In this document: positions 2,908-51,502 of the stretch, in pieces
How the letters are laid out: each line of letters begins with the position of its first letter
Numbering within the stretch: position 1 is the stretch's first letter
NCBI GenBank assembly: GCA_030614915.1
Contig: JAUXAG010000013.1
Coordinates: 1 to 63,357 of the forward strand
Length of the DNA stretch: 63,357 nucleotides
Reading direction: 5' to 3'
DNA from: Actinomycetes bacterium
GTDB taxonomy: Bacteria; Planctomycetota; Phycisphaerae; JAACET01
Notes under the pieces: generated by a model
Seen by the model: the letters and a program-made list of their open reading frames with translations, nothing else
Told to the model about the DNA's origin: nothing
The model's database searches: none
Translations under genes and position numbers: made by a program

Positions 2908-3789
2908 TTATTTCTTCATTAATGACCAATATTCGATATTTTCATCCTTCTGCTGTTTTGCTTTGTCGAGTACTTCTCGTATTCTGGAAACTGGTTCCAC
3001 CACACCAAAATCCATCTTCTGACTCGAGGCGATGACCAGACCAAGCAACTGAACTTTTGAATCTGTTAAGGATGGCTGCTTCAATACAGGGCTTCCACTG
3101 TTACCGTGAAATATTTCAGCATCGATCAGATAGCATTTCTCTTCCACAAACTTGTTTTCTCCATTCATCCTCAGCCTTAGAAACTTCTTGCCTGTCCGCA
3201 TTGCGATTATGCCTGATCTACCAAATGGCCGTTGCTCACGGAGTTCGAAGCCGATGTTGACTGGAAACCCAAAGACAAGAATCTTTCTCGGCGGTGCTGG
3301 GTCATCTAACGGGAGTTGATTCTTGTCCTTAGTTTTAGAATCTGGAAGATCATATCTAAAGTGCGTGATTGTTCGTCCCTTGAACCACGATATCTTCATT
3401 GCGGCCACGTCAACAGGATGAGTATCCTTATTGCCATCGACAGGATGAGAAACCCATCGCTTTCTTGGGAGCTTGAGAAGGACCATTTCTTTCCTTCCCG
3501 AACTCTTGTTGATGCACTCAACTCTTGCATGGAGGTCATATGGCAGTTCAACCACGTGGCGAGCCGATACGACAAACAGATGTCCAGCACTCTGGACAAA
3601 AAAGGCAGTTCCATTCGACTTGTTCCGTTTAATAACTTCTGATGACCCTTCCTGTTTAACATACTCCAAATGTTCCAGACGAATGACAGCTCGGCTGAGC
3701 TGTGAGTAGAAATCCTCTTTCTTCTTCGTGCCTGCAGCGTTGGCAACAAGACAGGAGACCACTAGTATTGCTGATATCACTCTATTCAT
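2908..3789 (-). CDS. Secreted trypsin-like serine protease
   Basis: A 293-residue protein with an N-terminal signal peptide (hydrophobic 4-18, ending AANA-like) followed by an S1-type protease domain. The likely triad is His78 in VVSARHV, Asp127 in PVDVAAM and Ser231 in GNSGSPV, in the usual order and spacing. The start is the ATG at 3789, preceded by AGAGGAA; an upstream in-frame extension lacks a binding site. It should act in the periplasm or outside the cell; its substrate is unknown. A second protease of the same build is at 50585. The gene is AT-rich compared with the dcw genes and carries its own palindromic promoter. Confidence 0.8.
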   Translation of the reverse strand: MNRVISAILVVSCLVANAAGTKKKEDFYSQLSRAVIRLEHLEYVKQEGSSEVIKRNKSNGTAFFVQSAGHLFVVSARHVVELPYDLHARVECINKSSGRKEMVLLKLPRKRWVSHPVDGNKDTHPVDVAAMKISWFKGRTITHFRYDLPDSKTKDKNQLPLDDPAPPRKILVFGFPVNIGFELREQRPFGRSGIIAMRTGKKFLRLRMNGENKFVEEKCYLIDAEIFHGNSGSPVLKQPSLTDSKVQLLGLVIASSQKMDFGVVEPVSRIREVLDKAKQQKDENIEYWSLMKK

Positions 3790-3818
3790 TTCGTGTTCCT
3801 CTGAAGATCTAACAATGA

Positions 3819-3835
3819 TTATACAGTCTGTATAA
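3819..3835 (-). promoter_or_regulatory. Palindromic operator/promoter element, copy 2
   Basis: TTATACAGTCTGTATAA differs from copy 1 only in the central base and again ends 30 bases before the start codon, here the protease ATG at 3789. The minus-strand -10 box is TATAAT, and a TGTTTG lies 17 bases upstream. The repeated sequence and identical spacing argue for a shared regulator. Confidence 0.6.
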
Positions 3836-3927
3836 AACACCAAACACAGGGAGCCAAATTTGGATTTCTGGAGGCCCCCATTAATCAGCATAATACTCAA
3901 ACTCCCACCCGACGTCAATCGCCAATT

Positions 3928-4507: not shown

Positions 4508-5014
4508 ATGAGCCCATCACTTTTATTTCTGACCGGTGAATACGAGCACAAATTGGACTCCAAGAACAGGCTGTTTATTCCGGGCCGGCTGCGGGAGTGC
4601 ATCTATCCGGAGCGGGACGGTCTGGGATTTTTTTTGGTCTTTGGACCGAACAAGATCCTGGGACTTTACCCGGACGAATACTATCGGCGGCTGGCGGTGA
4701 GGGAGGAGGGGCAATTGGTGCCGGGGGCTGAGCTGGTGGATTTCGAGCGGGTGACTTTTGCCTTGGCATCTCATCTGGAGCTTGACCCGCAGAACAGACT
4801 GACCTTGCCGGCAAAGATGATCGAACGGGCTCAACTGGGACGTGATGTGGTGCTTATCGGAGCTAAGGACCATATCGAGCTCTGGGACGGGAAGGCGTGG
4901 AAGAATTACCTGGCTGGACAGCTGGAAAAGCACGAGGAACTGCTGGAACTCGGACGCCAAGCTCGGCGTGGACGGGCGAACCAAGAATCGACCAAGTCGA
5001 AACGACAACGGTAG
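4508..5014 (+). CDS. mraZ: Transcriptional regulator MraZ
   Basis: A 168-residue protein with two AbrB-like DNA-binding halves, each carrying the DxxxR signature: DSKNRLFIP near residue 17 and DPQNRLTLP near residue 93. It is slightly longer than the E. coli protein because of a charged C-terminal tail. The ATG at 4508 has GGAGG about ten bases upstream. As the first gene of the remaining dcw cluster it should repress its own operon through the periodic boxes just upstream. The next gene starts 126 bases downstream. The assignment is firm from both motif and position. Confidence 0.95.
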   Translation: MSPSLLFLTGEYEHKLDSKNRLFIPGRLRECIYPERDGLGFFLVFGPNKILGLYPDEYYRRLAVREEGQLVPGAELVDFERVTFALASHLELDPQNRLTLPAKMIERAQLGRDVVLIGAKDHIELWDGKAWKNYLAGQLEKHEELLELGRQARRGRANQESTKSKRQR

Positions 5015-5140
5015 AGAGGCTGGAGCTAGCCGTGGCGGTCAGGGGATAGTTGGAAAGGAAAGCAGTCAGGGAAGGAGAACTGCTCAGGGCCAAGGAGGGC
5101 CCACTTAGAATTCGATTCGGTCCAACGGAAAGGAGCGATT

Positions 5141-5383
5141 ATGGCAGCGGTAAAGGAGATGCCCAGGGTTGAAGTGGTTACATCGATGAGCCTGGGGGAA
5201 GTACGCCAGCAGTTGGCCAAGTTCAGGCGGGGCGGAAGGATAAAGGCTGCCGATCGGGCCAGGCTGGAGAGGAAAATGAAGGAGATTCTGAGTCGTTTGG
5301 CCAAGCTGGGGCAGAAGGGCGAGCGATTTGCCCAGATTCGGCTCAGTGCTGAGGCAAAGGCACTGAGCAAGCGGATCTGCTGA
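5141..5383 (+). CDS. Small charged helical protein between mraZ and rsmH
   Basis: An 80-residue, strongly basic protein predicted to be helical throughout, rich in Arg, Lys, Ala and Leu, with possible coiled-coil heptads from residue 20 on. The ATG is preceded by AAAGGAG at a good distance, and its codon use matches the neighbours. I do not recognise a family. Its place between mraZ and rsmH suggests a division-related or structural role but this is only context. A modular repeat begins about 25 bases after its stop. Confidence 0.6.
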   Translation: MAAVKEMPRVEVVTSMSLGEVRQQLAKFRRGGRIKAADRARLERKMKEILSRLAKLGQKGERFAQIRLSAEAKALSKRIC

Positions 5384-5407
5384 TCGTGAAGAAAGGCGTG
5401 AGGCCCG

Positions 5408-5480
5408 CTCGTGCTTCCAGCCTTCGCAGCCGAAGCTGCTTCGGCGGAGTAGGCTCGCAGCGAAGCGCCGCTTCGCAGAG
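5408..5480 (+). repeat. Modular hairpin repeat, copy 2 (long centre)
   Basis: CTCGTGCTTC at 5408-5417 and CTTCGCAGAG at 5471-5480 are the same arms as in copy 1, in inverse orientation. The centre is longer and contains two self-complementary parts, CCGAAGCTGCTTCGG and GCGAAGCGCCGCTTCGC. Together with copy 1 it brackets mraZ and the small gene. Confidence 0.65.
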
Positions 5481-5620
5481 TAGTAAGGCCTGGGGCTTAG
5501 CAGTAGAGGGGCGGAGAGGAGGGGGGATCGAGAGGGAGCAGGGAAAAAACGAATATAAGTTTCCAAGAGAAGGGCAAGTTTCTTGCAGGGGAGTATGAGC
5601 GGCGGTAAACTTCAGAGCCG

Positions 5621-6532
5621 ATGCAAATGAGCCGCCAGCAAAGCAAACATGAGCCGGTGCTTCTGGCGGAGGTCCTGGAGCTGCTGGAGCCGTCGGCTGG
5701 AAAGGTGGTGGTGGATTGTACCGTAGGTTTTGGCGGTCATGCCTCGGCGATGCTCAAAAGGATCGGGGCGGGCGGTTTTGTACTTGGAATAGACCTTGAC
5801 CGGACTGCTCTGGCAGCGGCCAGAGCTGAACTGGAGGATATTGGAAACAACTTTGAGCTCTGGCAGGGCAACTTCGGGCAGACAGAGGAAATTATTGGCC
5901 GACTGCCAGGCAAAAGAGCGGATGTGATCCTGGCGGATTTGGGAGTTAACTCGCAGCAGCTCGACGATGGGTCACGAGGTTTCAGTTTTGGGCAGGATGG
6001 ACCCTTGCGGATGACGATGGACGCGGATGCAGAACCAGATGCGGCTGAGTTGGTCAATAGACTCAGCGAGAAAGAGCTGGCGGATTTGATATATGGTTAT
6101 GGTCAGGAGCGTCGTTCACGGCGGATAGCGCGGTTTATTGTGCGGGCCCGGACAGAAGAGCCGATTAGGACAACGGGACGGCTGGCGGAGATTATTTGTC
6201 GGGCCGTCGGGCCGGCAGCGAGACGCCAGCGAATACATCCGGCGACGCGGACCTTTCAGGCCCTGCGGATAGCAGTCAACGGTGAGCTTGAGAATCTGAG
6301 CAATCTGCTGGCAGGAGCCAAGGACATTTTGGCTGAGGGGGGAAGAATGGGAGTGATTTCTTTTCAGAGCCTGGAGGATCGGCTGGTCAAGCACAGTTTT
6401 CGCCGAGGAGCCAAGGAAGGTTACTGGAAGGTTTTGACGAAATCGCCGATTCGGCCCGGCGAAGCAGAAAGAAAGGCTAATCCGCGTTGCCGCAGCGCGA
6501 AGTTTCGAGCAGCAGAACGAAGAAAGGCTTGA
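5621..6532 (+). CDS. rsmH: 16S rRNA (cytosine1402-N4)-methyltransferase
   Basis: A 303-residue protein of the MraW/RsmH family, which methylates C1402 in the decoding region of 16S rRNA. The AdoMet loop VVVDCTVGFGGHASAML lies at about residues 28-44, DLGVNSQQLDD near 108 and the substrate-side motif DGPLRMTMD near 127. GVISFQSLEDRLVK near 248 is the characteristic C-terminal signature. Length is typical. The start could be the ATG at 5621 or the one two codons later. It lies downstream of mraZ as usual for dcw clusters. Confidence 0.95.
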   Translation: MQMSRQQSKHEPVLLAEVLELLEPSAGKVVVDCTVGFGGHASAMLKRIGAGGFVLGIDLDRTALAAARAELEDIGNNFELWQGNFGQTEEIIGRLPGKRADVILADLGVNSQQLDDGSRGFSFGQDGPLRMTMDADAEPDAAELVNRLSEKELADLIYGYGQERRSRRIARFIVRARTEEPIRTTGRLAEIICRAVGPAARRQRIHPATRTFQALRIAVNGELENLSNLLAGAKDILAEGGRMGVISFQSLEDRLVKHSFRRGAKEGYWKVLTKSPIRPGEAERKANPRCRSAKFRAAERRKA

Positions 6533-6700
6533 GGCCTGAGGCTGGAGGCTTGAGGAAGAAGACGGAGAAAGAAATACAGAGAATACAGAAAGATAATTAG
6601 CCACAGATGAACACAGATTGTAAGAAATAATGAACTCTTTCAATATTTGATTTTTGCTTTGTCATTTTGCACTTTGCATTTTGATTTGATCAAGGAAGGA
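6529..6700. repeat. Intergenic repeat mosaic after rsmH
   Basis: Three modules follow each other: GAGGCTGGAGGCTTGAGG (about 6538), GAAATACAGAGAATACAG (about 6570) with GCCACAGATGAACACAGA (about 6600), and an AT-rich TTTGATTTTTGCTTTG / TTTGCATTTTGATTTG tract (6646-6688). The same modules in similar order occur at 17098-17170, 43967-44100 and 47886-47945. Confidence 0.65.
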
Positions 6701-6707
6701 GGCGGCT

Positions 6708-7451
6708 ATGACCAAGGAAACTAAGGTCGGACTGGTAATAGGGCTGCTGTTTATGGTGGGCGTGGTTTATGTGCTCAGCGTGGTTACGAACCATCCGAAC
6801 GATCCGGAACTGGAAAAGCAGGTGGCTGATCTCAGAGCCCAGCAGAGGGGGGCAGATCTGCAGGCGGCCAGCGGTAAAAGGATCCCCCTGAGTGTATCCA
6901 AGAAGATCGAGCCGTTGGGGGATACAGTGCCCCAGAAGAAAGAGGTCGCGGTTATCCAGCCAGTAGCTGTAAAAGTGCCTGTGGTGAAAAAGACTGTTCT
7001 GGCGGCGCCGCCGAAGCCGCGGTTCTATATTGTCAAGGAGGGGCAGACGCTGAGCGACGTGGCTGGGGAGGTTTATGGCTGGGCGAACCGGCATGAGTTT
7101 GAGCGGATTCATAAGGCCAATGAGTACAAGGTGCCCAACGCCAACATGATTTGGCCGGGTCTGAAGCTGCTGATTCCGCCGTTGGAAGAGCCCAAGCCGA
7201 CTGACGCAAAAAAGGTGCTGAGTCCGGGCGGGGTACGGACCTATACGGTAATGCTCGGCGATACGCTCTCGGAGATATCATCGAGGAAGTTAGGGACAGC
7301 CACACGCTGGCGGGAGATATTGAGGCTCAATAGTCACAAGCTGCCTAGTGAATACACGCCGCTGCAGGTGGGTATGGTTTTGAAGCTGCCGGCGGCGTCG
7401 AAGGGATCTGGGTTCCGGCTGCCGAAAGGGCCCGATGATTTGTGGCGATGA
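6708..7451 (+). CDS. Membrane-anchored protein with two LysM domains
   Basis: A 247-residue protein with one N-terminal membrane helix (about 9-26), a linker rich in Lys, Pro and Val, and two LysM modules at about 105-157 (starting FYIVKEGQTLSDVA) and 177-228 (starting TYTVMLGDTLSEIS). LysM modules bind the glycan strands of peptidoglycan, so the protein probably sits in the inner membrane and reaches into the wall. AAGGAGG lies just before the ATG. It occupies a place between rsmH and ftsL in the cluster, which suggests a role in septal or lateral wall assembly. No hydrolase domain is present. Confidence 0.85.
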   Translation: MTKETKVGLVIGLLFMVGVVYVLSVVTNHPNDPELEKQVADLRAQQRGADLQAASGKRIPLSVSKKIEPLGDTVPQKKEVAVIQPVAVKVPVVKKTVLAAPPKPRFYIVKEGQTLSDVAGEVYGWANRHEFERIHKANEYKVPNANMIWPGLKLLIPPLEEPKPTDAKKVLSPGGVRTYTVMLGDTLSEISSRKLGTATRWREILRLNSHKLPSEYTPLQVGMVLKLPAASKGSGFRLPKGPDDLWR

Positions 7452-7543
7452 AGGAAAAATAAAAAATCAAAAATATAAATGCAAAATGACATAGTAAAGT
7501 TCAAAAAGAGAAGAGGAACGTTGTTGGGGCAGGGATAGGCGGC

Positions 7544-7843
7544 ATGAACCAAAGACGAGTGGTTGCGGTGTTGGTGTTTTTCTTTGCGGTGGCCTTTTGC
7601 ATAGTTCACTTGGAAGGAGAGGAGAGTCGCCATGCCCGTCAGATCGCCCGGCTGAATAGACAGCTACTGGAGCTTGACTATCAGGGATGGCAAGCTCGGG
7701 CGCACCTGGCGAAGTTATGCAGTCCGGCCCAACTGCGGCAGCGCTCGGAAACAATGGCCCTGGGGACGATGGCCCCGGGTGCTGTGGTCGAAGCCGGCGC
7801 CGGAAGCGGGGAGGAGCTGGCCGCGGATTTAACGGAAAGATAA
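7544..7843 (+). CDS. ftsL: FtsL-like cell division protein
   Basis: A 99-residue protein with a short cytoplasmic N-terminus, one membrane helix (about 5-22) and a coiled-coil region with Leu/Ala heptads (about 28-60). This is the architecture of FtsL, and the gene lies directly before ftsI. Sequence identity of FtsL proteins is always low, so the call rests on architecture and position. The last 15-20 residues are Gly/Ala-rich and lie over the region where an alternative ftsI frame is open. The AT-rich repeat tract at 7455-7506 lies just upstream. Confidence 0.65.
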   Translation: MNQRRVVAVLVFFFAVAFCIVHLEGEESRHARQIARLNRQLLELDYQGWQARAHLAKLCSPAQLRQRSETMALGTMAPGAVVEAGAGSGEELAADLTER

Positions 7844-7854
7844 TTGGCCACATC

Positions 7855-9657
7855 GTGTTCGAAAAAAGCGATAGAACATTTAAGCAAGCAGGAAAAAGTC
7901 GCAGTGAGCCCAGGGCCTGGGTCTGCAAAGGTATGCCGGTGCTGATTATGCTGGGGTTGGCGGGGCTGCTGGGCAGGTGCGCGTTTTTGCAGTTGAGCCC
8001 GGCGACGGCTGGCTGGCGTGAACGGGCCCGGCGACAGCAAAGGCAAATCATTCGGCTCTCGGCTAAACGGGGCAGCATCCTGGACAGGGCGGGGAGGGTC
8101 TTGGCCTGCGACGTGCGGGCCCGGGGAGTTTTTGCCGATCCGGAGATTCTGGCTGAGCCGGGCAGGGCGGCTGAGAAACTGGCGGGGATTCTCCGAATCA
8201 GCGGGGAAGATTTGCTGGCCAAGATCGAGCAGGCTAAAAGCAGGCGGTTCGTCTGGCTAAAGCGCGATGTTTCGGATGAGCAGGCCCGGCTGGTGCGGGG
8301 CTTGGGCATCCGGGGGATCGCAGTGCAGAGCTATCAGCAGCGAGATTATCCGCAGGGCAAACTGGCGGGTCAATTGTTGGGCTTTACGGGCCTTGACGGA
8401 AACGGACTCGAAGGAATGGAAAAGCAATTCGAGGCGGAACTGGCTGGGCGCCAAGGGTATCAGCGGCGGACGGTGGGCCCGGGACGCCGGGCCCTGTGGG
8501 CGCCGGCTAGGGACTACCGGGCGGTGAGAGACGGGGCTAACCTGGTGCTGACCATCGACAGCGCGATTCAGCAGATCTGCGAAGAACAACTGGAACAGGC
8601 TTGCGAGAAGTATAAGGCCAAGTGGGGGATGGCGGTGGTGATGGACCCGGCAAACGGGGAGGTGCTGGCGATGGCCAATTGGCCGAGCTTCGCCCCGGCG
8701 GAGTTTGCCGGCAGCAAGGCCCAACTGAGGCGGAATCGCTGCGTGACGGATGTGTTTGAGCCTGGCTCAACCTTCAAATGCTTCGTGGCGAGCAAGGCCC
8801 TGGAGGCGGGACTGTTCGCAGTGGAGGAGGAGATTTTCTGCCATAACGGGGCCTACCGGATCGGCGGGCGGACGCTGCACGACCACGGGGCGGGGTTCGG
8901 CGAGCTGAGCTTTGAGGACGTGGTGGTGCATAGCTCGAATATCGGGATGGCCATTGTGGGCCAACGGATGGGCAATGAGAGGCTATACCAGGCGGTGCGG
9001 GATTTTGGGTTCGGCCAAAAGACTCAAGTAGGACTGGCAGGGGAGTCGGCGGGGCTTGTGGCAGAACTGGAGAAGTGGACGAGCTATTCGACGAGCTCGG
9101 TGCCGATGGGGCAGGAGATCGGAGTGACGGGGCTGCAGATGCTGCGGGCTTTTTGTGCGATAGCTAATGGGGGTCTGCTGTATGAGCCGAGGATTGTACG
9201 CGAGGTGGTGGCCGAGAGCGGCGAGGTGCTCTGGCGGAGTGTGGCGGATGAGCAGCCGAGCCGAGCGCTGGAAGAGCCGGTGGCGAAGATTATGCGCGAG
9301 CGGATATTGGCTAATGTGGTCCAGCGGGGTACGGGGACGCGGGCGAAACTCTTCGGCTGGGGAGTGTTCGGCAAAACTGGTACGAGCCAGGTGGCTGGCG
9401 AAGGGGGGTATTTGGCGGATAAGTTCGTGGGCAGCTTCTTAGGCGGGGCGCCGATCGATGAGCCGCGGGTCTGTGCGATGGTGGTGATCGGTGAGCCCCA
9501 GCGGTCGCTCGGCTATTACGGCGGTACGGTGGCAGCGCCGGCAGTGGGGGCTATCCTGGAGCAGACACTGGGGTATCTGGGGACCCCGGCTGAGCCGAGG
9601 CTCCAAGAGAGAGATGGGCTGATGGTCAGGGCCTTGATAGATGAATACAGAAATTAG
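7855..9657 (+). CDS. ftsI: Peptidoglycan transpeptidase FtsI (class B penicillin-binding protein)
   Basis: A class B PBP of about 600 residues that cross-links septal peptidoglycan in the periplasm. After a cytoplasmic start and a membrane helix comes the dimerisation domain (KRGSILDRAGRVLA), then the transpeptidase domain with Ser305 in PGSTFK, SSN at 360-362 and KTGTSQ from 507. The frame is open from an ATG at 7687, but that would overlap most of ftsL and adds a low-complexity leader. I prefer the GTG at 7855, 12 bases after the ftsL stop; an ATG at 7933 is also possible. No PASTA domain is present. murE, which often follows, is on the other strand. Confidence 0.92.
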   Translation: MFEKSDRTFKQAGKSRSEPRAWVCKGMPVLIMLGLAGLLGRCAFLQLSPATAGWRERARRQQRQIIRLSAKRGSILDRAGRVLACDVRARGVFADPEILAEPGRAAEKLAGILRISGEDLLAKIEQAKSRRFVWLKRDVSDEQARLVRGLGIRGIAVQSYQQRDYPQGKLAGQLLGFTGLDGNGLEGMEKQFEAELAGRQGYQRRTVGPGRRALWAPARDYRAVRDGANLVLTIDSAIQQICEEQLEQACEKYKAKWGMAVVMDPANGEVLAMANWPSFAPAEFAGSKAQLRRNRCVTDVFEPGSTFKCFVASKALEAGLFAVEEEIFCHNGAYRIGGRTLHDHGAGFGELSFEDVVVHSSNIGMAIVGQRMGNERLYQAVRDFGFGQKTQVGLAGESAGLVAELEKWTSYSTSSVPMGQEIGVTGLQMLRAFCAIANGGLLYEPRIVREVVAESGEVLWRSVADEQPSRALEEPVAKIMRERILANVVQRGTGTRAKLFGWGVFGKTGTSQVAGEGGYLADKFVGSFLGGAPIDEPRVCAMVVIGEPQRSLGYYGGTVAAPAVGAILEQTLGYLGTPAEPRLQERDGLMVRALIDEYRN

Positions 9658-10605: not shown

Positions 10606-11832
10606 ATGGCCCAAACCGTCAAGGACACATACAGCCGCAGCAGTGAGCAAGCCGATGAGGTGGAATCGCTTTCCCGGAATTTGGCTGAGACCTACGAAGA
10701 ACTGAGCTTTATATACAAGCTCAACAATGCGATGAACGTCACGGCCAATCCGGAAGAATACTTCAGACAGATCGCCGAGAACCTGGGCGAGCTGCTAGGT
10801 GTAAAAGCAGTGCTGGTGGTGCTTTTTCCAGAGACCCTGATCTCCGGGGACAAGGACAACATTGTTATCCACTGCGGGCAGTTACCGGCAAGTGAAGAGC
10901 AGATAATGAACAGGGTTTATCCGGACATGCTGGTTAAAGGCGGCTGCCCGGTGCGTAGAGATCCGAGCCATTGCCTGACCTACGCAGCCGGCGACGAAGA
11001 ACTGGGGCAAATGCTGCTGGCCCCGATCCTGCGAGGCGAAAGGCGCCTGGGCATGATCATGGCCCTGGAGCCGATGAGTGGGCGCCAGTTCGACAACATC
11101 GATGCAACTAGGCTGTCGAACGTAGCCAACATCGCTGCAGCTTTTCTGGAGAACTTCCGGCTGTACGGGAGCCTTCGCCGACTGTTCCTGGGGTCGATGC
11201 GAGCCCTGACCAGCAGCATCGACGCGAAAGATCCCTACACCTGCGGTCATTCGGAACGGGTGGCCCTTTTGAGCAAGAAAATCGTAGAGCTGATGGGTTT
11301 GTCCGGGATAGAGGCAGAGCGAATCTACCTGTGCGGGCTGCTGCACGACATCGGCAAAATAGGGGTGCCCGAAGCAGTGCTGCAAAAGCCGGACAAACTG
11401 ACGGTCTATGAATTCGAGTTGGTAAAACAGCATCCGGTAATCGGGGCTAAAATAATTCGGGGTATTCAAGAGATGGAAGATTTGGTCCCGGGGGTGCTGC
11501 ATCACCATGAGCGCATGGACGGGGAAGGTTATCCGGATGGCTTGGGAGCCAAGGAGATACCCTTTCAGGCCCGGGTGCTGTGCGTGGGGGATGCCCTGGA
11601 TGCCATGACCTCGGATCGGCCGTATCGTAAGGCGCTGCCGGCCAAGCTGGCGGAGTCGGAAATATTTCGAGCGGCAGGAACGCAGTTCGATCCGGCTCTG
11701 GTGGAGGCGGTGCTGAAGCTAAACTTCCCGGAATATATTGCGGAGCTGAGGACTCATAAAGGCGTTCAACTTCCTGAGGATAGCTACGAGCTGCGAGACT
11801 CGGTCTCTGCTGAAGCGAGCTACGAGCGCTAG
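10606..11832 (+). CDS. GAF-like/HD-GYP protein, probable cyclic di-GMP phosphodiesterase
   Basis: A 408-residue protein with a GAF-like sensory part (about 30-190) and a C-terminal HD-GYP domain. Visible motifs are CGHSERVA, the metal-binding HDIGKIGVPE, HHERMDGEGYPDGL (the GYP region) and DALDAMTSDRPYR. HD-GYP enzymes hydrolyse cyclic di-GMP to GMP. The start is the ATG seven bases after the receiver stop. The last four bases overlap the stop of the convergent gene on the other strand. The GAF part has no obvious haem or cofactor residues. Confidence 0.9.
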   Translation: MAQTVKDTYSRSSEQADEVESLSRNLAETYEELSFIYKLNNAMNVTANPEEYFRQIAENLGELLGVKAVLVVLFPETLISGDKDNIVIHCGQLPASEEQIMNRVYPDMLVKGGCPVRRDPSHCLTYAAGDEELGQMLLAPILRGERRLGMIMALEPMSGRQFDNIDATRLSNVANIAAAFLENFRLYGSLRRLFLGSMRALTSSIDAKDPYTCGHSERVALLSKKIVELMGLSGIEAERIYLCGLLHDIGKIGVPEAVLQKPDKLTVYEFELVKQHPVIGAKIIRGIQEMEDLVPGVLHHHERMDGEGYPDGLGAKEIPFQARVLCVGDALDAMTSDRPYRKALPAKLAESEIFRAAGTQFDPALVEAVLKLNFPEYIAELRTHKGVQLPEDSYELRDSVSAEASYER

Positions 11833-12680
11833 GGGCGGCTTTGTCTCCGGGGCACCACGTAAACCCTTGGACGTACATATCGTCTGTAATCGCGGCGTAA
11901 CTCGCGAATATCTTCTTTATTCTCCTCTATGTCATCTGTTGCCTGTTGCAGCCTTCTACTCAAGTCTTCGAAGGTCAGGTCTAAATCGGAAATACGCTGC
12001 TCCAAGGTCTTGTAATGGTCATCAAGAGTCTGCCTGATTGCGGCCAACTCGGCAGTGTTTTTGGTGATCTCCTGCTTGAGTTCGTCCATTTGCTGATCAA
12101 TGACAGCCTGGGTTTGAAGTTTTGACAGTTCGGCTCTGGATTCTGCCTCGGTGATCCATATTTCGCGGTCAGCTTTTACCTGGGCTATTTTTTGGTCTAT
12201 TTCGCTGATCTCTTGAGGGTCTGGGTCTGCTGCCTGGCTCAGCAGTTGTTTTGCCTTTTCATAAAGGCGAATGGCCTGGATGAAATCATCGGGATCGTCC
12301 TTGAAATCCCAGGCTTTGCTGGCAAAAAGGGCGGCGAACTTCCGACAATAGTCAAGTTTCGACATAACCTGGGTGTGCATTGTTCCTGAGGCGATTTGTC
12401 TTTTGGCATACATGGAAACAACAATTGGAGATTGGTTGAGTTCCTCTAAGGTGATTTGGTTTCTGTCCTCGGAAATGACTCTGCCCATGACGAGGCTGCC
12501 GTCTCTTAGATAGAAAGTTTTGATTCGAACAGTTTCATTTGGTTGGGGTTTCTCCTGGGAGACAGGAGCAAGGGCTGGCGTTTCTTCAATAGGCGATCGG
12601 GTTTGCTCTGTCTGGGCGTAAAGGATGGAAAAAAGACATACAAGAGCGCTCCCGGCGATTATGAGAGATCTGTTTGTCAT
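11829..12680 (-). CDS. Secreted coiled-coil protein of unknown function
   Basis: A 283-residue protein with a signal peptide (about 1-22, ending LYAQ), a Pro-rich linker, a small beta-rich segment (about 48-85, RIKTFYLRDGSLVMGRVI) and a long coiled coil from about 150 to 265 with regular Leu/Ile heptads. It ends in a basic, Tyr/Arg-rich tail. AGGAGG precedes the ATG. The beta segment resembles the short modules that planctomycetes place at the start of secreted proteins, but I assign no family. It may belong to the envelope-stress set that starts with the sigma factor at 15561, being the last gene in the same direction. Confidence 0.7.
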   Translation of the reverse strand: MTNRSLIIAGSALVCLFSILYAQTEQTRSPIEETPALAPVSQEKPQPNETVRIKTFYLRDGSLVMGRVISEDRNQITLEELNQSPIVVSMYAKRQIASGTMHTQVMSKLDYCRKFAALFASKAWDFKDDPDDFIQAIRLYEKAKQLLSQAADPDPQEISEIDQKIAQVKADREIWITEAESRAELSKLQTQAVIDQQMDELKQEITKNTAELAAIRQTLDDHYKTLEQRISDLDLTFEDLSRRLQQATDDIEENKEDIRELRRDYRRYVRPRVYVVPRRQSRP

Positions 12681-12740
12681 TTTTCAGCCTCCTAATTATG
12701 TAGGTCAGTGTTTGCCAGTGCCAAGGCAAGACCAGAGAAA

Positions 12741-13325
12741 CTAGAACCTAAAGTTAAATACAGCTCCCAAGTTCAGCCAGGAACGAGCGGGTGCGCGAAC
12801 AGGCTGCGAAACCCAGTGGCCGGGGATCCAGACTCGAATCTGGCGAGTCTCATAACGGGGTGGCACATAGACCTTGACCTTGCGCATTTCATATCGGGCA
12901 GGGATCCAGACCTTCCTGGTGCGGGCGGGCTTGACCACGACCTTCTGAGCCTTTGGCCGGGAATTGCGGCGGATTTTCTCAGCCGCTGGCAGAGTGCGTG
13001 TTTCATAGTGGCCGGGCTCAACGAGTACCTGCTGCTTGCGCCACTCGTAGTGGCTAGGCTCGACAAGCACCTGCTCGGTGCGGGTCTGATACTGCCCCCG
13101 AACCCAGCGCCGGGCAGAGGTGTTCCCCAAAAAAAGCCTTCCCAGGTCGACGCTGAGGGTCAGACCGTGGCGGGAGTCTTTGTCGCGGTCTTTTTTCTGA
13201 GTTCGAGCGGGCACAGGTCTTGCTTGGCGCTTCCTTCCTTTGGCTTGAACTGGAGAAGAAAACAACAGGGCCGTAGAGAGGAAAACCGTAGTAAGGATGG
13301 TAATGGTTTTAGTTGAGGTCTTCAT
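12741..13325 (-). CDS. Secreted tyrosine-repeat protein, paralog A
   Basis: A 194-residue protein with a signal peptide (1-28, ending VQA), a very basic linker and a repetitive body. Short repeats with the core V-P-x-x-Y-E-x-R-x-V occur at about 74-86, 87-100, 101-110, 140-152 and 152-172. The C-terminus ends in F-N-F-R-F, an aromatic end like that of outer membrane proteins. Paralog B lies directly upstream with the same plan. AAGGAG precedes the ATG. The function is unknown; position suggests an envelope role under the ECF sigma factor at 15561. Confidence 0.75.
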   Translation of the reverse strand: MKTSTKTITILTTVFLSTALLFSSPVQAKGRKRQARPVPARTQKKDRDKDSRHGLTLSVDLGRLFLGNTSARRWVRGQYQTRTEQVLVEPSHYEWRKQQVLVEPGHYETRTLPAAEKIRRNSRPKAQKVVVKPARTRKVWIPARYEMRKVKVYVPPRYETRQIRVWIPGHWVSQPVRAPARSWLNLGAVFNFRF

Positions 13326-13393
13326 GATGGGGCTCCTTTCGTTGGGGCAAGTAGATTCGCTGGTAAGCCGACCTGAGCTATTGGCCCGGCGAG

Positions 13394-14008
13394 TTAGAAC
13401 CTGAATCTACCTCCGATCCTGAAGAAAGAGGACGGACCGGGAGCGTAAGCTGGGGAGTTGACCCAACGGCCCGGTACCCAGGTGCGGAATTGCCGGGTCT
13501 CGTAACGATTGGGCACCCAGACCTTGACCTGGTGCTGTTCGTACTTGGCTGGAATCCGAATGGTCTCAGTGCGGGCCGGCTCGACCACCACCTTGTAGGC
13601 CTTGCCTTCGTCGTCATGGCGAGTTTGCTCTACGGCTGGGATCTGGCGAATCTCATATCGCTCGGGCTCGATCTGTACCTGCTGGGTTTGCAATTCATAG
13701 TGTCCGGGCTCGACGAGTACTTGCTCAGTGTGCGTCTGGTAGTATCCGGGGACCCATTGCCGGGAACTGGTGGAGTAATAGTTATCGGAAAAGCCGAAGC
13801 TCAGGCCAAGGGACGAACCACCATAGCCTCGTCTTCCCCGTTGGCTGCGTCCGGATCTGCGGCCTTGCGGTCTGCTCCTTGAGGCGGAGCGTCTGCCGCC
13901 TCGACCACCTCGGCCATCTCTGGCCATGGCCGACTGTGGTACAGCAAGGAGTAAGGTCGAAAAGAACACAATAGTCACAGTCAAAATGTTTTTGATTTTG
14001 CGGTTCAT
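13394..14008 (-). CDS. Secreted tyrosine-repeat protein, paralog B
   Basis: A 204-residue protein with a signal peptide (about 1-29, ending AMA), an Arg/Gly-rich region (30-66), a Gly/Ser/Phe segment (GSSLGLSFGFS) and repeats with the core V-E-P-x-x-Y-E at about 85-97, 98-111, 112-124, 152-162 and 165-183. It shares EQVLVEPGHYE and VKVWVPNRYETRQ-type stretches with paralog A and ends in R-F-R-F. The pair must come from a tandem duplication. Runs of Arg before the repeats could bind an acidic surface polymer. No known family is recognised. Confidence 0.75.
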   Translation of the reverse strand: MNRKIKNILTVTIVFFSTLLLAVPQSAMARDGRGGRGGRRSASRSRPQGRRSGRSQRGRRGYGGSSLGLSFGFSDNYYSTSSRQWVPGYYQTHTEQVLVEPGHYELQTQQVQIEPERYEIRQIPAVEQTRHDDEGKAYKVVVEPARTETIRIPAKYEQHQVKVWVPNRYETRQFRTWVPGRWVNSPAYAPGPSSFFRIGGRFRF

Positions 14009-14039
14009 GATCCACCTTCCTTTCTTCTGTTACGAGAGG

Positions 14040-14441
14040 TTACTCAGCCGGCGGGCCAGGGCTGGTCTGCCGGCTGGGTGAAAACCGCCTATTGATTATC
14101 TCGACAAATTTCTGTTTCTGTTCGGGACTTAAATCACGCATAAACTCTTGCACGAGGGCGAGTCTTTCCAAGGCGAAGCTCTCGAGGAGCTTCTGGTCGG
14201 GCTTGTCCTTTATGAGTTCATCCAGAAAAGCCTGGCGTTTGGGGCCCATGCTCTGGCGGCGGTGCTGGAAGTTCTTGTACTGCTCTTCGGTAAGGTTTAG
14301 TTCTTTGGCTAAGAGCTCCATCCGGCCCTGGGGGCTGTGGGCCAATCGCATTCGCTTTTTGTCCAGGAAGGAGCCGACGATGAAAAAGACGTTGAAGGCC
14401 AGCGAAACGGCCAAGAGTATGGTGAGGATTCTGGTCTTCAT
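14040..14441 (-). CDS. CpxP/Spy-like periplasmic stress protein
   Basis: A 133-residue protein with an N-terminal membrane/signal helix (about 5-25) and a helical periplasmic domain carrying two LTxxQ-type motifs, LTEEQ at 50-54 and LSPEQ at 104-108. That is the hallmark of the CpxP/Spy/ZraP group of envelope chaperones and stress sensors. The start overlaps the stop of the anti-sigma gene by one base, which suggests translational coupling. Its location behind sigma and anti-sigma genes supports a role in sensing misfolding or metal stress in the periplasm. Confidence 0.75.
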   Translation of the reverse strand: MKTRILTILLAVSLAFNVFFIVGSFLDKKRMRLAHSPQGRMELLAKELNLTEEQYKNFQHRRQSMGPKRQAFLDELIKDKPDQKLLESFALERLALVQEFMRDLSPEQKQKFVEIINRRFSPSRQTSPGPPAE

Positions 14442-14950
14442 TATTTTTTACCTCCGTTTGAGCCATTTGGCGGGAGGATAAGTGCCAAGGTCAATCCGTC
14501 CATTTCGAGGAAGGCCTGGGAGCTAATGGAAGCCTGGGCACTACGTTGGCTTTGGGAAGTGGTTTGTCCGATGGTGTAGCCAGCCAGGCAGGCGAAAACG
14601 ACGGCTGCGGCGGCGGCTGCCCACTGGAGACGCTGCCAGAAGGCAGTTCGGTGGGGGATGATTGGGGAGTCCGGCAGGAAGGCCTTGGCCCGGTCAAGGA
14701 AGGCTTGAGAAACGAGGGCAGCTCCAGCGTCCTGGAGTTGGCGAAGCTCGATGAGCTCTTCGAGCAGCACGGGGTTTGAGGCCATAAGTGCTTCAATTTG
14801 CTCGACTTGGGCGGGTTCGGCCTTGCCGTCGAGATAAGCAGCCAGGAGATTAGGCTCAAGGTCCGATAATACAGGCTGTGCTTGATCTTGTGCAGCGAAT
14901 TGCCGCCAAAGCTGCTTTTCATTGGCGTGTTGTTGGTTCGACTCGTTCAT
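14441..14950 (-). CDS. Putative anti-sigma factor (single membrane helix)
   Basis: A 169-residue protein with a cytoplasmic helical part containing LAAYLDGKAEPAQVEQIEAL (36-55), typical of anti-sigma domains, a membrane helix at about 109-127 and a short periplasmic tail. It has no HxxxCxxC zinc motif, so it would be of the zinc-free type. It follows the ECF sigma gene after 62 bases and is fused by overlap to the CpxP-like gene. The inferred role is to hold the sigma factor at the membrane until an envelope signal arrives. Confidence 0.75.
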   Translation of the reverse strand: MNESNQQHANEKQLWRQFAAQDQAQPVLSDLEPNLLAAYLDGKAEPAQVEQIEALMASNPVLLEELIELRQLQDAGAALVSQAFLDRAKAFLPDSPIIPHRTAFWQRLQWAAAAAAVVFACLAGYTIGQTTSQSQRSAQASISSQAFLEMDGLTLALILPPNGSNGGKK

Positions 14951-15012
14951 AACTGTTTCTCCATTATGTTGTACGAGGCCCGGTGGTGGTTCATCCCCGC
15001 GGATTGGGGAAA

Positions 15013-15561
15013 CTACGAAGAATTCGGGGCTGCGAAGTGCTTGCGCAGCCGTTGGATAGCCTTGTGCCTGGTGCTGCGGACGGTCTGGGCAGAAACGCCC
15101 AAGAGCTTGGCAATGGCCGGGGTGTCCATTTGGCGGTCAAAGAGCAGATGTAGAATGAGTTTCTGGCGGGGGCTGAGCAGGCCGACGGGCAGGCCCTCGG
15201 CAGCAGAGGATGGTTCGGGGCCTTGAGCAGGCGAGGCAATGGGACCGGCCTGGTCGAGAGGAACGGTGGGAAGCTGCCGGCGGCGAAGGAAATCGATGGC
15301 TGAACTGCGGGCGATAATGGTCAGCCAAGTCGGAAGGGAAGCCCGGTCAGGGTCGTAGGTTCTGAGAAGGTGGAAGTCGTTCTTGATGAGGCGAAGAAAG
15401 ACGTCCTGGCTGATGTCCTCGGCTCTCTGTTGGTCGGCGGCCAGGCCGCGGCTGCTAAGAATCCGCCCGACGGCAGCCATGATCACGCCAGCGTAGCGCT
15501 GGACAAAGGCATCCCAGGCCCATTTTTGGCCCTGCAGACATTTGGCGAGGACTTTATCCAT
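15013..15561 (-). CDS. ECF-family RNA polymerase sigma factor
   Basis: A 182-residue protein with sigma region 2 (EDISQDVFLRLIKN, TWLTIIARSSAIDFLRRR) and region 4 (LSPRQKLILHLLFDRQMDTPAIAKLLGVSAQTVRSTRHKAIQRLRK). Region 3 is absent, as in ECF sigma factors. Region 2 is short of the usual full DVxQE word but retains the pattern. The gene opens a minus-strand set: sigma, anti-sigma, CpxP-like protein, two repeat proteins and a coiled-coil protein. The gap to the divergent kinase gene is 193 bases. Confidence 0.88.
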   Translation of the reverse strand: MDKVLAKCLQGQKWAWDAFVQRYAGVIMAAVGRILSSRGLAADQQRAEDISQDVFLRLIKNDFHLLRTYDPDRASLPTWLTIIARSSAIDFLRRRQLPTVPLDQAGPIASPAQGPEPSSAAEGLPVGLLSPRQKLILHLLFDRQMDTPAIAKLLGVSAQTVRSTRHKAIQRLRKHFAAPNSS

Positions 15562-15754
15562 AAGTACAATTCGATAGGGTCAGCAGATTCTAATCAAGAA
15601 CAGATAATATCGATAAAGAAGGTTGAAATCCAGGATCGGTGGGGAGGATTGCTGTGTACAGGTTAGGCCCGCCTGAGCGAGAGAGGCAAACATCTTGCAA
15701 GAGGTCGGCGTGTTGTGGTAGGTTGAGATGAAGTAATCCCGGGAGGGGAGCAAA

Positions 15755-17089
15755 ATGGCTAAGCGGAGAAAGAAAAAGGCGGCGGGAGTGAATAAGGCCC
15801 AGCTACGTCTGGCCCGAGGTACTCGGCTGGCGAAATACCGGCTGGAAAAGCGTCTGGGCCGGGGCGGATTCTGCGAGGTGTGGAAGGCCCGGGATACGGT
15901 GGAGGGGATCTGGGTGGCCTTGAAAATACCGCATTTGGATATCCACGGCAAACGTGACAACAAGTCGGTCCTGCGCGAAGTGGGCCTGATAGCCAAGCTG
16001 CGGCACGAACACATAATGCCGTTGAAGAATGCGGACATTATCGACGGCCAAGCGGTGATAGCTACGGAGCTGTCCTTGGGGACCCTGGCCGACCGCTCGA
16101 AGCCGATGGCCCTCAGGCGGATCCTGTCGATAACCTGCCAAGTGCTGGAGGGACTGGCTTACGCACACCATCATCGCCTAGTGCACTGCGACGTGACGCC
16201 GGGGAATATATTCTTGCTCGCCGATGGTCGGGCGGCGCTGGGCGATTTTGGAATCAGCCTGGAATTCAAGGGGCGCATGGTAACCATCGACGAGTACGGC
16301 ACGCCGGGATATGTGGCGCCGGAGCAGGCCTACGGCAGGCCGACGTATCGCAGCGATTGCTTCGCGGTGGGCTTGATTCTTTACGAGTATATCACGGGTT
16401 TTCTTCCGCGGTGGCCTTTTCGCTGGCCGTTCCGCGGTTACGAGCGGCTGCATGAGCGGACCAACTGGGCTATGGTGGCCTTTTTGAGGCGGGCTCTGTC
16501 GGTGGATCCGGCCCGGCGTTTTGCCAATGCCGAACAGATGCTTACGGCCCTGTTGCAGGCGACACCAAAGGCACTGCGAGAGGGGCTGGTCAAGGCCTCG
16601 GTGGCGAAGAAAAAAACCGACTGGCGCGAGTCTCGGCGAGAGGCGTTTATCAAACGTTACAAGAGGAGCTTTCCCGCGATTTTCCGCTGCGACCAATGCG
16701 GCGAGCCGATAGCGGAAAGCATGCTGAATTGTCCGTGGTGCGGGAGTGGGCACAATCGCTTCGACTACCGCAGCAATTACAGCCACATTTGCCGGCGTTG
16801 TCATAAGGGGGTCTTGCCGGAATGGCGGTACTGCCCCTGGTGCTATGGGGCGGGCTTTCACTCGCCGAACGGTTCGCGGACACCAGGGGTGCGCTATCAT
16901 CGGCATTGCCGATACTGCAAGGGACCGTTGATGCGTTTTATGCGTTACTGCCCTTGGTGCCGAAGGAAGGTACGGCGAGCGTGGCAGGTTCGGCCTTTCC
17001 CCCAAATATGCGGGCGCTGCGGCTGGTCGGTAGATACGACCTTCTGGAACTACTGTCCGTGGTGCGAACAAAACCTGATGCCAAGATGA
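15755..17089 (+). CDS. Ser/Thr protein kinase with four C-terminal zinc ribbons
   Basis: A 444-residue protein. The kinase domain (about 26-270) has the glycine loop GRGGFCEV, ATP-binding Lys57 (VALK), a catalytic loop HCDVTPGN at 144-151 with Asp146 present but Arg and Lys replaced by Cys and Thr, DFG at 164-166 and GTPGYVAPE at 182-190. The C-terminal quarter has four tandem ribbons, each with a CxxC pair and a second pair in a YCPWC-like word: Cys 312/315/326/329, 346/349/360/363, 385/388/399/402 and 419/422/434/437. There is no membrane helix. A strong GGGAGGGGAG site precedes the ATG. The PP2C gene at 18896 is the likely antagonist. Confidence 0.9.
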   Translation: MAKRRKKKAAGVNKAQLRLARGTRLAKYRLEKRLGRGGFCEVWKARDTVEGIWVALKIPHLDIHGKRDNKSVLREVGLIAKLRHEHIMPLKNADIIDGQAVIATELSLGTLADRSKPMALRRILSITCQVLEGLAYAHHHRLVHCDVTPGNIFLLADGRAALGDFGISLEFKGRMVTIDEYGTPGYVAPEQAYGRPTYRSDCFAVGLILYEYITGFLPRWPFRWPFRGYERLHERTNWAMVAFLRRALSVDPARRFANAEQMLTALLQATPKALREGLVKASVAKKKTDWRESRREAFIKRYKRSFPAIFRCDQCGEPIAESMLNCPWCGSGHNRFDYRSNYSHICRRCHKGVLPEWRYCPWCYGAGFHSPNGSRTPGVRYHRHCRYCKGPLMRFMRYCPWCRRKVRRAWQVRPFPQICGRCGWSVDTTFWNYCPWCEQNLMPR

Positions 17090-50584: not shown

Positions 50585-51502
50585 ATGCACGCCAATAGGT
50601 TTTTTCAGGGCACCATTACCATTATGCTATTGTCATCCATATTGGGAGGAATTCTAATGGCAGCTCCTATACCACCTGTTTTTAAGTCTGTGGTCGCTTT
50701 TATCTACATTAAAAATGAGAAAGGCGAGCTTATTCCCAACGGAACAGCTTTTTTCGTGGCAGTCAAAAACCCTTCTGATCCTAACATTTCCAGTGTTAAT
50801 CTAGTTACGGCAAAACATGTGCTGTGTAAACCGGACACAAGCGAGTATCGCGACAACGTCTTCGTTCGTCTGAACAAGAAAGAGGGTGGTTCGGAGACCG
50901 TTCTTATTCCTATTAGCACCAAAGGCGAGAAACGGACAGTCTTCACACACAGTGACCCTAATGTTGATATCGCAGTTATTCCGTGCTTACCTAACCAGGC
51001 TAAGTTCGATTTTAAGTGTCTATCAGACGATATGATTATAACGAAAAAAGCATACAAGGATCTTAAGATTCGAGAGGGTTCTGAAGTATTTTTTACTGGG
51101 CTATTTTCACGACATCCAGGGGTCGAGAGGAACTATCCTATTGTTAGATTTGGCCGTGTTGCTCTGGTTACGGACGAGAAGATTGAGTGGAAGCCCGGAA
51201 AGAAAATGGACCTGTATCTGATTGAAGCTGGCTCTTACGGTGGCAACAGTGGTGCGCCAGTGTTCTTCGCTCTGGGGAGCGATCGTGAACCTGGAAAACT
51301 TATACTTGGTTCCACCATTTATAAACTGGCAGGTATCATGAAAGGCTCATTTTCTGATGTTCGTGAAATCAAAGTCGTTGACACAAAGAAAAAAAGAGTT
51401 CCAGTTGCGTTATCAAATATGGGGATCGCCGCCGTAGTCCCAGGCTATAAGCTCCACGAAGTACTATTTAGTGAGGAAGTCAAGAAAACCAGAGGTTTTT
51501 AA
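50585..51502 (+). CDS. Secreted trypsin-like serine protease, second copy
   Basis: A 305-residue protein with a signal peptide (about 8-27) and a trypsin-like domain. The likely triad is His78 (VTAKHVL), Asp128 (NVDIAVI) and Ser222 (GGNSGAPV), so His and Asp lie at the same positions as in the protease encoded at 2908. Both also share NGTAFFV at about 59-65. The two proteins are therefore paralogs of one divergent family. AAGGAGAAC precedes the ATG. The palindromic element of the first gene is not found here, so regulation differs. Confidence 0.8.
   Translation: MHANRFFQGTITIMLLSSILGGILMAAPIPPVFKSVVAFIYIKNEKGELIPNGTAFFVAVKNPSDPNISSVNLVTAKHVLCKPDTSEYRDNVFVRLNKKEGGSETVLIPISTKGEKRTVFTHSDPNVDIAVIPCLPNQAKFDFKCLSDDMIITKKAYKDLKIREGSEVFFTGLFSRHPGVERNYPIVRFGRVALVTDEKIEWKPGKKMDLYLIEAGSYGGNSGAPVFFALGSDREPGKLILGSTIYKLAGIMKGSFSDVREIKVVDTKKKRVPVALSNMGIAAVVPGYKLHEVLFSEEVKKTRGF

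Follow-up and report, generated by a model that had tools for sequence, protein, structure and literature searches.

A putative envelope-stress operon of a planctomycete that joins an ECF sigma factor set to secreted repeat proteins of an uncatalogued family

What are two secreted proteins built of short tyrosine-containing repeats doing behind the genes for a sigma factor and its regulators? The question is raised by six consecutive open reading frames (ORFs) on the minus strand, at positions 11829-15561 of a 63,357-nucleotide stretch of planctomycete DNA (contig JAUXAG010000013.1 of assembly GCA_030614915.1), referred to here as the window. These ORFs encode, in the order in which they would be transcribed, a sigma factor of the extracytoplasmic function (ECF) type, an anti-sigma factor, a protein resembling Spy, CpxP and CnrX (the Spy-like protein), two YExR repeat proteins (RP1 and RP2; RP is used for any member of their family), and a secreted coiled-coil protein. 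In our opinion, which leans to this reading without great assurance, the first five genes form one envelope-stress operon that carries a secreted β-sheet envelope protein as its resident cargo or output. The identities of the genes, their operon-like spacing, the purifying selection acting on them, the recurrence of a four-gene order in a distant genome, and the predicted folds are the observed and computed features from which this reading starts. The genome holding the window (2.56 Mb assembly) is labeled G000; G001 and G002 belong to the same genus, G690 to another family and class, and G516, G469 and G408 are further genomes from outside the genus.

A sequence-only reading of the locus, made before any database search, had listed six minus-strand genes here. 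All six ORFs are present, and each is under purifying selection. The ratio of nonsynonymous to synonymous substitution rates between the window and G001 is 0.24 for the sigma factor, 0.30 for the anti-sigma factor (partial copy), 0.29 for the Spy-like protein, 0.31 for RP1, 0.55 for RP2, and 0.36 for the coiled-coil protein; with values of 0.24-0.55, all six are to be regarded as real genes. They are spaced as in an operon. The sigma and anti-sigma genes are 62 bp apart and the start of the Spy-like gene overlaps the stop of the anti-sigma gene, after which only small spaces are left upstream of RP1 (31 bp), RP2 (68 bp) and the coiled-coil gene (60 bp).

The product of the first gene is a plain ECF factor. 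It is a short protein with regions 2 and 4, scores above the cut-offs of Sigma70_r2 (E 6e-12), Sigma70_r4 (E 5e-9) and TIGR02937 (E 6e-21), and its profile matches ECF sigma chains in the PDB. The anti-sigma factor lacks the Hx3Cx2C motif, and its single cysteine, residue 121, lies inside the hydrophobic stretch. Its absence is ordinary: among anti-sigma domains of class I, a share of approximately 44% has been reported to be of the non-zinc type (PMC7406223). No convincing sequence match of this protein to any solved structure was found, and the sole anti-sigma model that it matches in NCBIfam, NF010501, is matched weakly. Its assignment as an anti-sigma factor, putatively of class I with a helical (ASDI) domain, is supported by gene neighborhoods, since 20 of the 23 loci of the class that bear a weak relative of its domain have an ECF sigma gene in their short flanks.

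The Spy-like protein falls just below the curated cut-offs of both models that it approaches, LTXXQ (PF07813; 23.4 vs 24.3 bits) and Metal_resist (PF13801; 22.3 vs 29.2 bits). A structural model of it, built from 2 sequences and having a mean predicted local distance difference test (pLDDT) value of 69, ranks chains of Spy, a VirG-like protein, CpxP, CnrX and NccX at the top (Z 5.0-6.9, all below 8). For this 2-sequence model, the comparison with Spy (5wo3_B) gives Z 6.9 and a root-mean-square deviation (rmsd) of 2.3 over 68 residues, that with CpxP (3itf_A) Z 5.7 and rmsd 3.7 over 87 residues, and that with CnrX (3epv_C) Z 5.5 and rmsd 3.6 over 82 residues. A Foldseek search with the model returned no match at E 0.001. 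It should be noted, therefore, that the assignment is based on which chains rank first and not on Foldseek significance. LTxxQ motifs are also common to this protein and to CpxP and Spy; unlike these two, the window protein appears, as judged by eye, to be anchored at its N-terminus, and it is linked to an ECF sigma factor, whereas CpxP is linked to a two-component system.

The three regulatory genes constitute an already known kind of module, as indicated by the ranking of library and model matches, by the presence of an ECF sigma gene beside 16 of the 30 PF13801 loci examined in the class, and by the RpoE8 operon of Azospirillum brasilense, which is described as having the same make-up: sigma factor, hypothetical protein, and periplasmic heavy metal sensor (PMC12826043). 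Thus the sigma/anti-sigma/CpxP-like set that the sequence-only reading had named, with its zinc-free anti-sigma factor, is borne out. The repeat proteins stand apart from this precedent; the description of the RpoE8 operon, as far as it goes, mentions none (PMC12826043).

The precedent invites an explanation in terms of metal. In Cupriavidus metallidurans, CnrH, CnrY and CnrX are an ECF sigma factor, a small membrane anti-sigma factor and an anchored periplasmic protein encoded in one cluster (PMC4598750), and the likeness of the window set extends to the three components and, as far as the low-confidence model suggests, to the fold of the third. By analogy, the Spy-like protein would bind a metal ion and the RPs would be a metal-handling output, an idea with which the frequent pairing of PF13801 and sigma genes and the His-rich linkers of some RP homologues agree. 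The metal ligands of CnrX are conserved His and Met residues. Across the three orthologous Spy-like proteins, however, no His or Cys is invariant, nor is any Met except the start; this makes a metal site like that of CnrX less likely. Moreover, RP1 and RP2 have no cysteine and four histidines each, and the window operon, unlike the Cnr cluster, adds secreted repeat proteins and has no efflux system among its six genes. Because the conserved ligand residues are lacking, metal sensing is not favored, and we consider it improbable. Among the papers searched, none treats as many as four of CnrX, CnrY, CnrH, Spy and CpxP together.

RP1 and RP2 are paralogues (46% identity). The P-x-x-[YT]-E core occurs five times in RP1, where shuffled sequences have 0.09 on average, and four times in RP2, where they have 0.06; none of 5000 shuffles reached either count. 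Both proteins end in FRF. The description of them as paralogous repeat proteins with aromatic ends holds. In the RP tree, which retains 72 of 73 rows (one was dropped for too few columns), each groups with its own G001 orthologue, and their duplication is thus older than the split between the window and G001.

Neither protein reaches the cut-off of any Pfam or NCBIfam model, and no PHROG is matched at E 0.1. Two candidate affiliations fell short. Where the repeat region ends, W-V-P-G-x-W stretches recall the WXXGXW family (PF12779), but the scores, 13.1 and 12.2 bits, lie below its cut-off of 18. The YTV cell-wall proteins of Planctomycetales (PF07639) are, like the RPs, secreted and made of short Tyr/Val/Pro repeats, but they are longer and rich in cysteine, and there is no profile similarity (hhalign probability 4%). 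A literature search on the repeat motif found no description; on this search and on Pfam, NCBIfam and PHROG only, the family is called undescribed here. The earlier statement that the repeats match no known family is therefore right as to models, but members of this family occur widely across the phylum. Of 397 genomes searched in the class, at least 10 have a profile match (E <= 1e-6); a wider profile, run against a sample of 392 phylum genomes, has matches in at least 77 (E <= 1e-5). Beyond the phylum, the search consisted of one pattern scan of genome contigs and a plasmid search, the latter of which found no plasmid-borne relatives of RP2. In many members, a signal peptide is followed by a linker of low complexity and charged composition and by V-x-V-P-x-x-Y-E-x-R repeats around a central D-x-x-G turn; the aromatic C-terminus is found in one part of the family. 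The RPs are, in short, an uncatalogued yet widespread family of secreted proteins.

A β-solenoid had been named as one fold to look for in the repeats. The AlphaFold model of RP1 (7 sequences) is instead a β-meander: residues 81-186, mostly with pLDDT above 90, form ten antiparallel strands, and the turns fall where the P-x-x positions are. RP1 and RP2 are thus probably sheet-forming, as far as a predicted model can tell. The linker and tail are of low confidence and the predicted template modeling score (pTM) is 0.30; consequently, the overall shape of RP1 is not fixed. The C-terminal aromatic pattern of outer membrane β-barrels is present, and the low pTM of the model, a meander, limits what it says on barrel closure. 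No convincing sequence match of RP1 to a solved structure was obtained, and Foldseek found nothing at E <= 0.001 in the PDB or BFVD. The best VIA-align row has Z 2.8 and rmsd 7.2 over 64 residues, for which reason no fold relative is claimed. Weak or absent matches of this kind are no proof of a new fold.

The evidence that ties the repeat proteins to the regulatory set is the order of genes in other genomes. In G690, one class away, the genes for sigma factor, anti-sigma factor, Spy-like protein and RP follow one another as in the window, at identities to the window proteins of 53%, 35%, 42% and 28% (RP1), respectively. The Spy-like profile used over RP neighborhoods contains sequences of G516 and G690, and its matches in these two genomes are thus circular; phmmer searches of G690 with the window proteins, which provide an independent check, gave 8.5e-20 for the anti-sigma factor and 4.7e-20 for the Spy-like protein. 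Within the genus, a contig of G001 carries the coiled-coil, RP2, RP1, Spy-like and anti-sigma genes up to its end, and a sigma gene 91% identical to that of the window stands on another contig, approximately 50 bp short of its end; the four-gene order holds in G001 if the two contigs join. The overlap of the anti-sigma and Spy-like genes is the same in the window, G001 and G690. A different sigma set accompanies an RP in G516, where one strand carries, in this order, the RP, an ECF sigma factor 27% identical to that of the window, a small protein in which a single stretch is hydrophobic, and an anchored protein with an LTPEQ motif. In G469, an RP gene is divergent from that of an ECF sigma factor with a longer C-terminal part.

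Some of the sigma-related ORFs are larger. At the G469 locus (L136, 2314-3978 and 6089-8281) there are two ECF sigma factors with C-terminal extensions of several hundred residues, one of them being the gene divergent from the RP; at a locus of G408 (L213, 2605-6467), an RP-like ORF and a large ORF that matches an ECF sigma factor share one strand and are 93 bp apart.

Several observations weigh against the reading of an operon with the RPs as its output, and some of them would be expected if the RP genes were passengers, that is, members of a widespread secreted family that landed by chance behind a sigma operon. Neighborhoods were compared at 69 RP loci outside the genus, a set that omits weaker matches and additional copies within one genome; several of the contigs end within a few kb. 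Of these loci, 65 lack an ECF sigma gene at a distance of up to 1.2 kb. The four that are seen compare with 2.2 expected from the outer flanks (P 0.19), and the three within 500 bp with 0.9 expected (P 0.065); seven further sigma genes lie beyond 1.2 kb. A general rule that RPs go with sigma factors was accordingly rejected for want of a significant excess. Strong matches to the anti-sigma factor are confined to G000 and G690 among the 392 phylum genomes sampled (among 198 genomes of the class, they are those of G000 and G001). G002, one of the three genus genomes and 89% complete, has no RP, and the coiled-coil gene was not found in it either. The LTPEQ protein of G516 is weakly Spy-like, by motif and position only. 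Finally, the regions upstream of the sigma genes in the window and G690 share no motif, their best 16-mer having 11 matches against a shuffle mean of 11.2.

A passenger would hardly be expected, in our view, to keep the same four-gene order, together with overlapping anti-sigma and Spy-like genes, in two classes, or to recur beside a second type of sigma set in G516. We therefore regard the passenger explanation as unlikely, though it deserves to be taken seriously. Given that sigma enrichment is not significant across the family, the argument for linkage relies on the conserved order of four genes and not on family statistics; the functional link of RP and sigma factor is proposed at that strength. 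The tie that the sequence-only reading had drawn between repeat proteins and sigma set thus survives for G001, G690 and, with another set, G516, but does not extend to the family as a whole. The proviso attached to it, that the repeat proteins might always occur without the sigma set, does not describe the genomes, where the combination recurs in G001 and G690. The near-identical operon in so distant a relative suggests that its components work together in the cell envelope.

In the envelope-stress operon as we envisage it, the zinc-free anti-sigma factor would hold the sigma factor at the inner membrane in the resting state. The anchored Spy/CpxP-like protein, on the periplasmic side, would sense the state of the envelope and act on the anti-sigma factor in the manner of CnrX towards CnrY, or of CpxP towards its partner. 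Under stress, the anti-sigma factor would release the sigma factor, which would then transcribe its own operon and so raise the supply of secreted RP. RP1 and RP2, having crossed the inner membrane, would form an extended antiparallel β-sheet in the envelope, tethered by the strongly basic disordered linker, and could reinforce or cap the wall or the outer membrane. In this scheme, sensing, autoregulation, location, and a structural rather than an effector role for the RPs are the parts that we infer.

The C-termini of the RPs suggest that these proteins could be a signal instead of, or besides, an output. The aromatic tail of a misassembled RP would be read by an HtrA-type PDZ protease, and the anti-sigma factor would begin to be cleaved, in the way that the tails of outer membrane proteins act through DegS or MucE through AlgW. 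An aromatic-x-aromatic end is found in all four RPs of the genus (G000 and G001) and in those of G690, G516 and G469. Aromatic last and third-last residues occur at 9 of the 69 loci outside the genus compared with 3 of 487 control ORFs of the same loci (Fisher 7e-7). When the 69 are divided at the 1.2 kb limit, the tail is present in 3 of the 4 RPs linked to a sigma gene and in 6 of the 65 unlinked ones (Fisher 0.006, kinship ignored). The reported ligands of HtrA PDZ domains, YQF (YxF) for DegS and the WVF type, that of MucE, for AlgW (PMC8545111), resemble the RP tail. HtrA-type genes with PDZ domains, identified as proteases by the GNSGG motif, are present in G000, G001, G690 and G516, and G000 also has a PDZ-bearing protein of the RseP kind, so typed by its HExxH motif.

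Several points speak against this reading. The tail is clustered on the RP tree (7 changes), and Fisher tests ignore such kinship; six of the RPs with the tail lie more than 1.2 kb from any sigma gene seen; the start of the HtrA found looks like a signal peptide and not like an evident anchor; and an aromatic C-terminal end, being a reported insertion signal of outer membrane proteins (PMC3582582), fits that role as well. A reporting role of the tail, like that of MucE or of outer membrane proteins, is possible by analogy, and we think it distinctly unlikely to be the explanation of the locus. Elsewhere in the window, an LptD-like outer membrane protein (35605-38472; by eye) ends in the non-aromatic GGVVSRR, and an aromatic end is thus no rule for the outer membrane proteins of this genome. 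Two secreted trypsin-like proteins (2908-3918 and 50585-51502) have GTAFFV and GNSG motifs and, by eye, no evident PDZ domain.

The features of the locus are listed in Table 1.

Table 1. Genes and candidate regulatory elements of the locus, in window coordinates
Feature	Position	Strand	Description
ECF sigma factor	15013..15561	-	182 aa; Sigma70_r2, Sigma70_r4, TIGR02937
Anti-sigma factor	14441..14950	-	169 aa; zinc-free cytoplasmic domain, one hydrophobic helix, short periplasmic tail (topology by eye)
Spy/CpxP/CnrX-like periplasmic protein	14040..14441	-	133 aa; N-terminal anchor by eye; LTEEQ and LSPEQ motifs
RP1	13394..14008	-	204 aa; signal peptide (by eye), Arg-rich linker, predicted ten-strand β-meander at residues 82-185, end ...GGRFRF
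RP2	12741..13325	-	194 aa; RP1 paralogue, end ...FNFRF
Secreted coiled-coil protein	11829..12680	-	283 aa; coiled-coil-type library matches
Sigma70-like promoter candidate TTGGCA-18-CATAAT	12695..12724	-	upstream of coiled-coil gene; 10/12 matches
Conserved non-coding block, likely operon promoter region	15562..15633	-	directly 5' of sigma gene; kept in G001

The sixth gene fits the operon less well than the other five. Relatives of the coiled-coil protein occur in G000 and G001 only, of the 7 genomes searched, and the gene is probably genus-specific. The gap ahead of it is approximately 90% identical in G001 and holds the sigma70-like promoter candidate. Judging from these sequence features, it may be a neighbor with its own promoter and transcription unit rather than a member of the operon.

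At the other end, approximately 72 bp directly 5' of the sigma gene are conserved with G001, and further upstream the two genomes cannot be aligned. No RNA structure was detected in this upstream region (z -0.05). A common ECF promoter for the sigma genes of the window, G001 and G690 was considered and rejected, G690 sharing nothing above shuffles. Adjoining the sigma gene, at 15755-17089, is a divergently transcribed serine/threonine kinase gene with C-terminal zinc-ribbon-like CxxC repeats, which is not conserved at this place in G001. On the other side of the operon, at 4508-9657, mraZ, rsmH, a LysM protein gene and a penicillin-binding protein gene stand in a row (names by eye), with LysM where ftsL would be expected.

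If the tail were indeed read by a protease, the locus could be imagined as a self-reporting stress operon, which encodes both a sigma pathway and the secreted β-sheet protein that this pathway watches. The free tail of a misassembled RP would engage an HtrA-type PDZ protease and bring about destruction of the anti-sigma factor, while the Spy-like protein would keep the RP soluble and gate the response; the RPs would then represent a novel type of envelope protein in planctomycetes, the counterpart of the YTV wall proteins but free of cysteine. We offer this as speculation that probably does not hold. If true, it would mean that a structural protein of the envelope is supplied in step with its assembly.

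The significance of the RP family extends beyond this operon. Its members are found in many families of the phylum, have a confidently predicted β-meander, and are linked to ECF operons in some lineages, whereas the YTV proteins, the known envelope candidates, reportedly occur in Planctomycetales alone (PMC8567305). How the planctomycete envelope is held together is unsettled, and the RP family provides concrete candidate envelope proteins, along with a regulator through which they may be studied.

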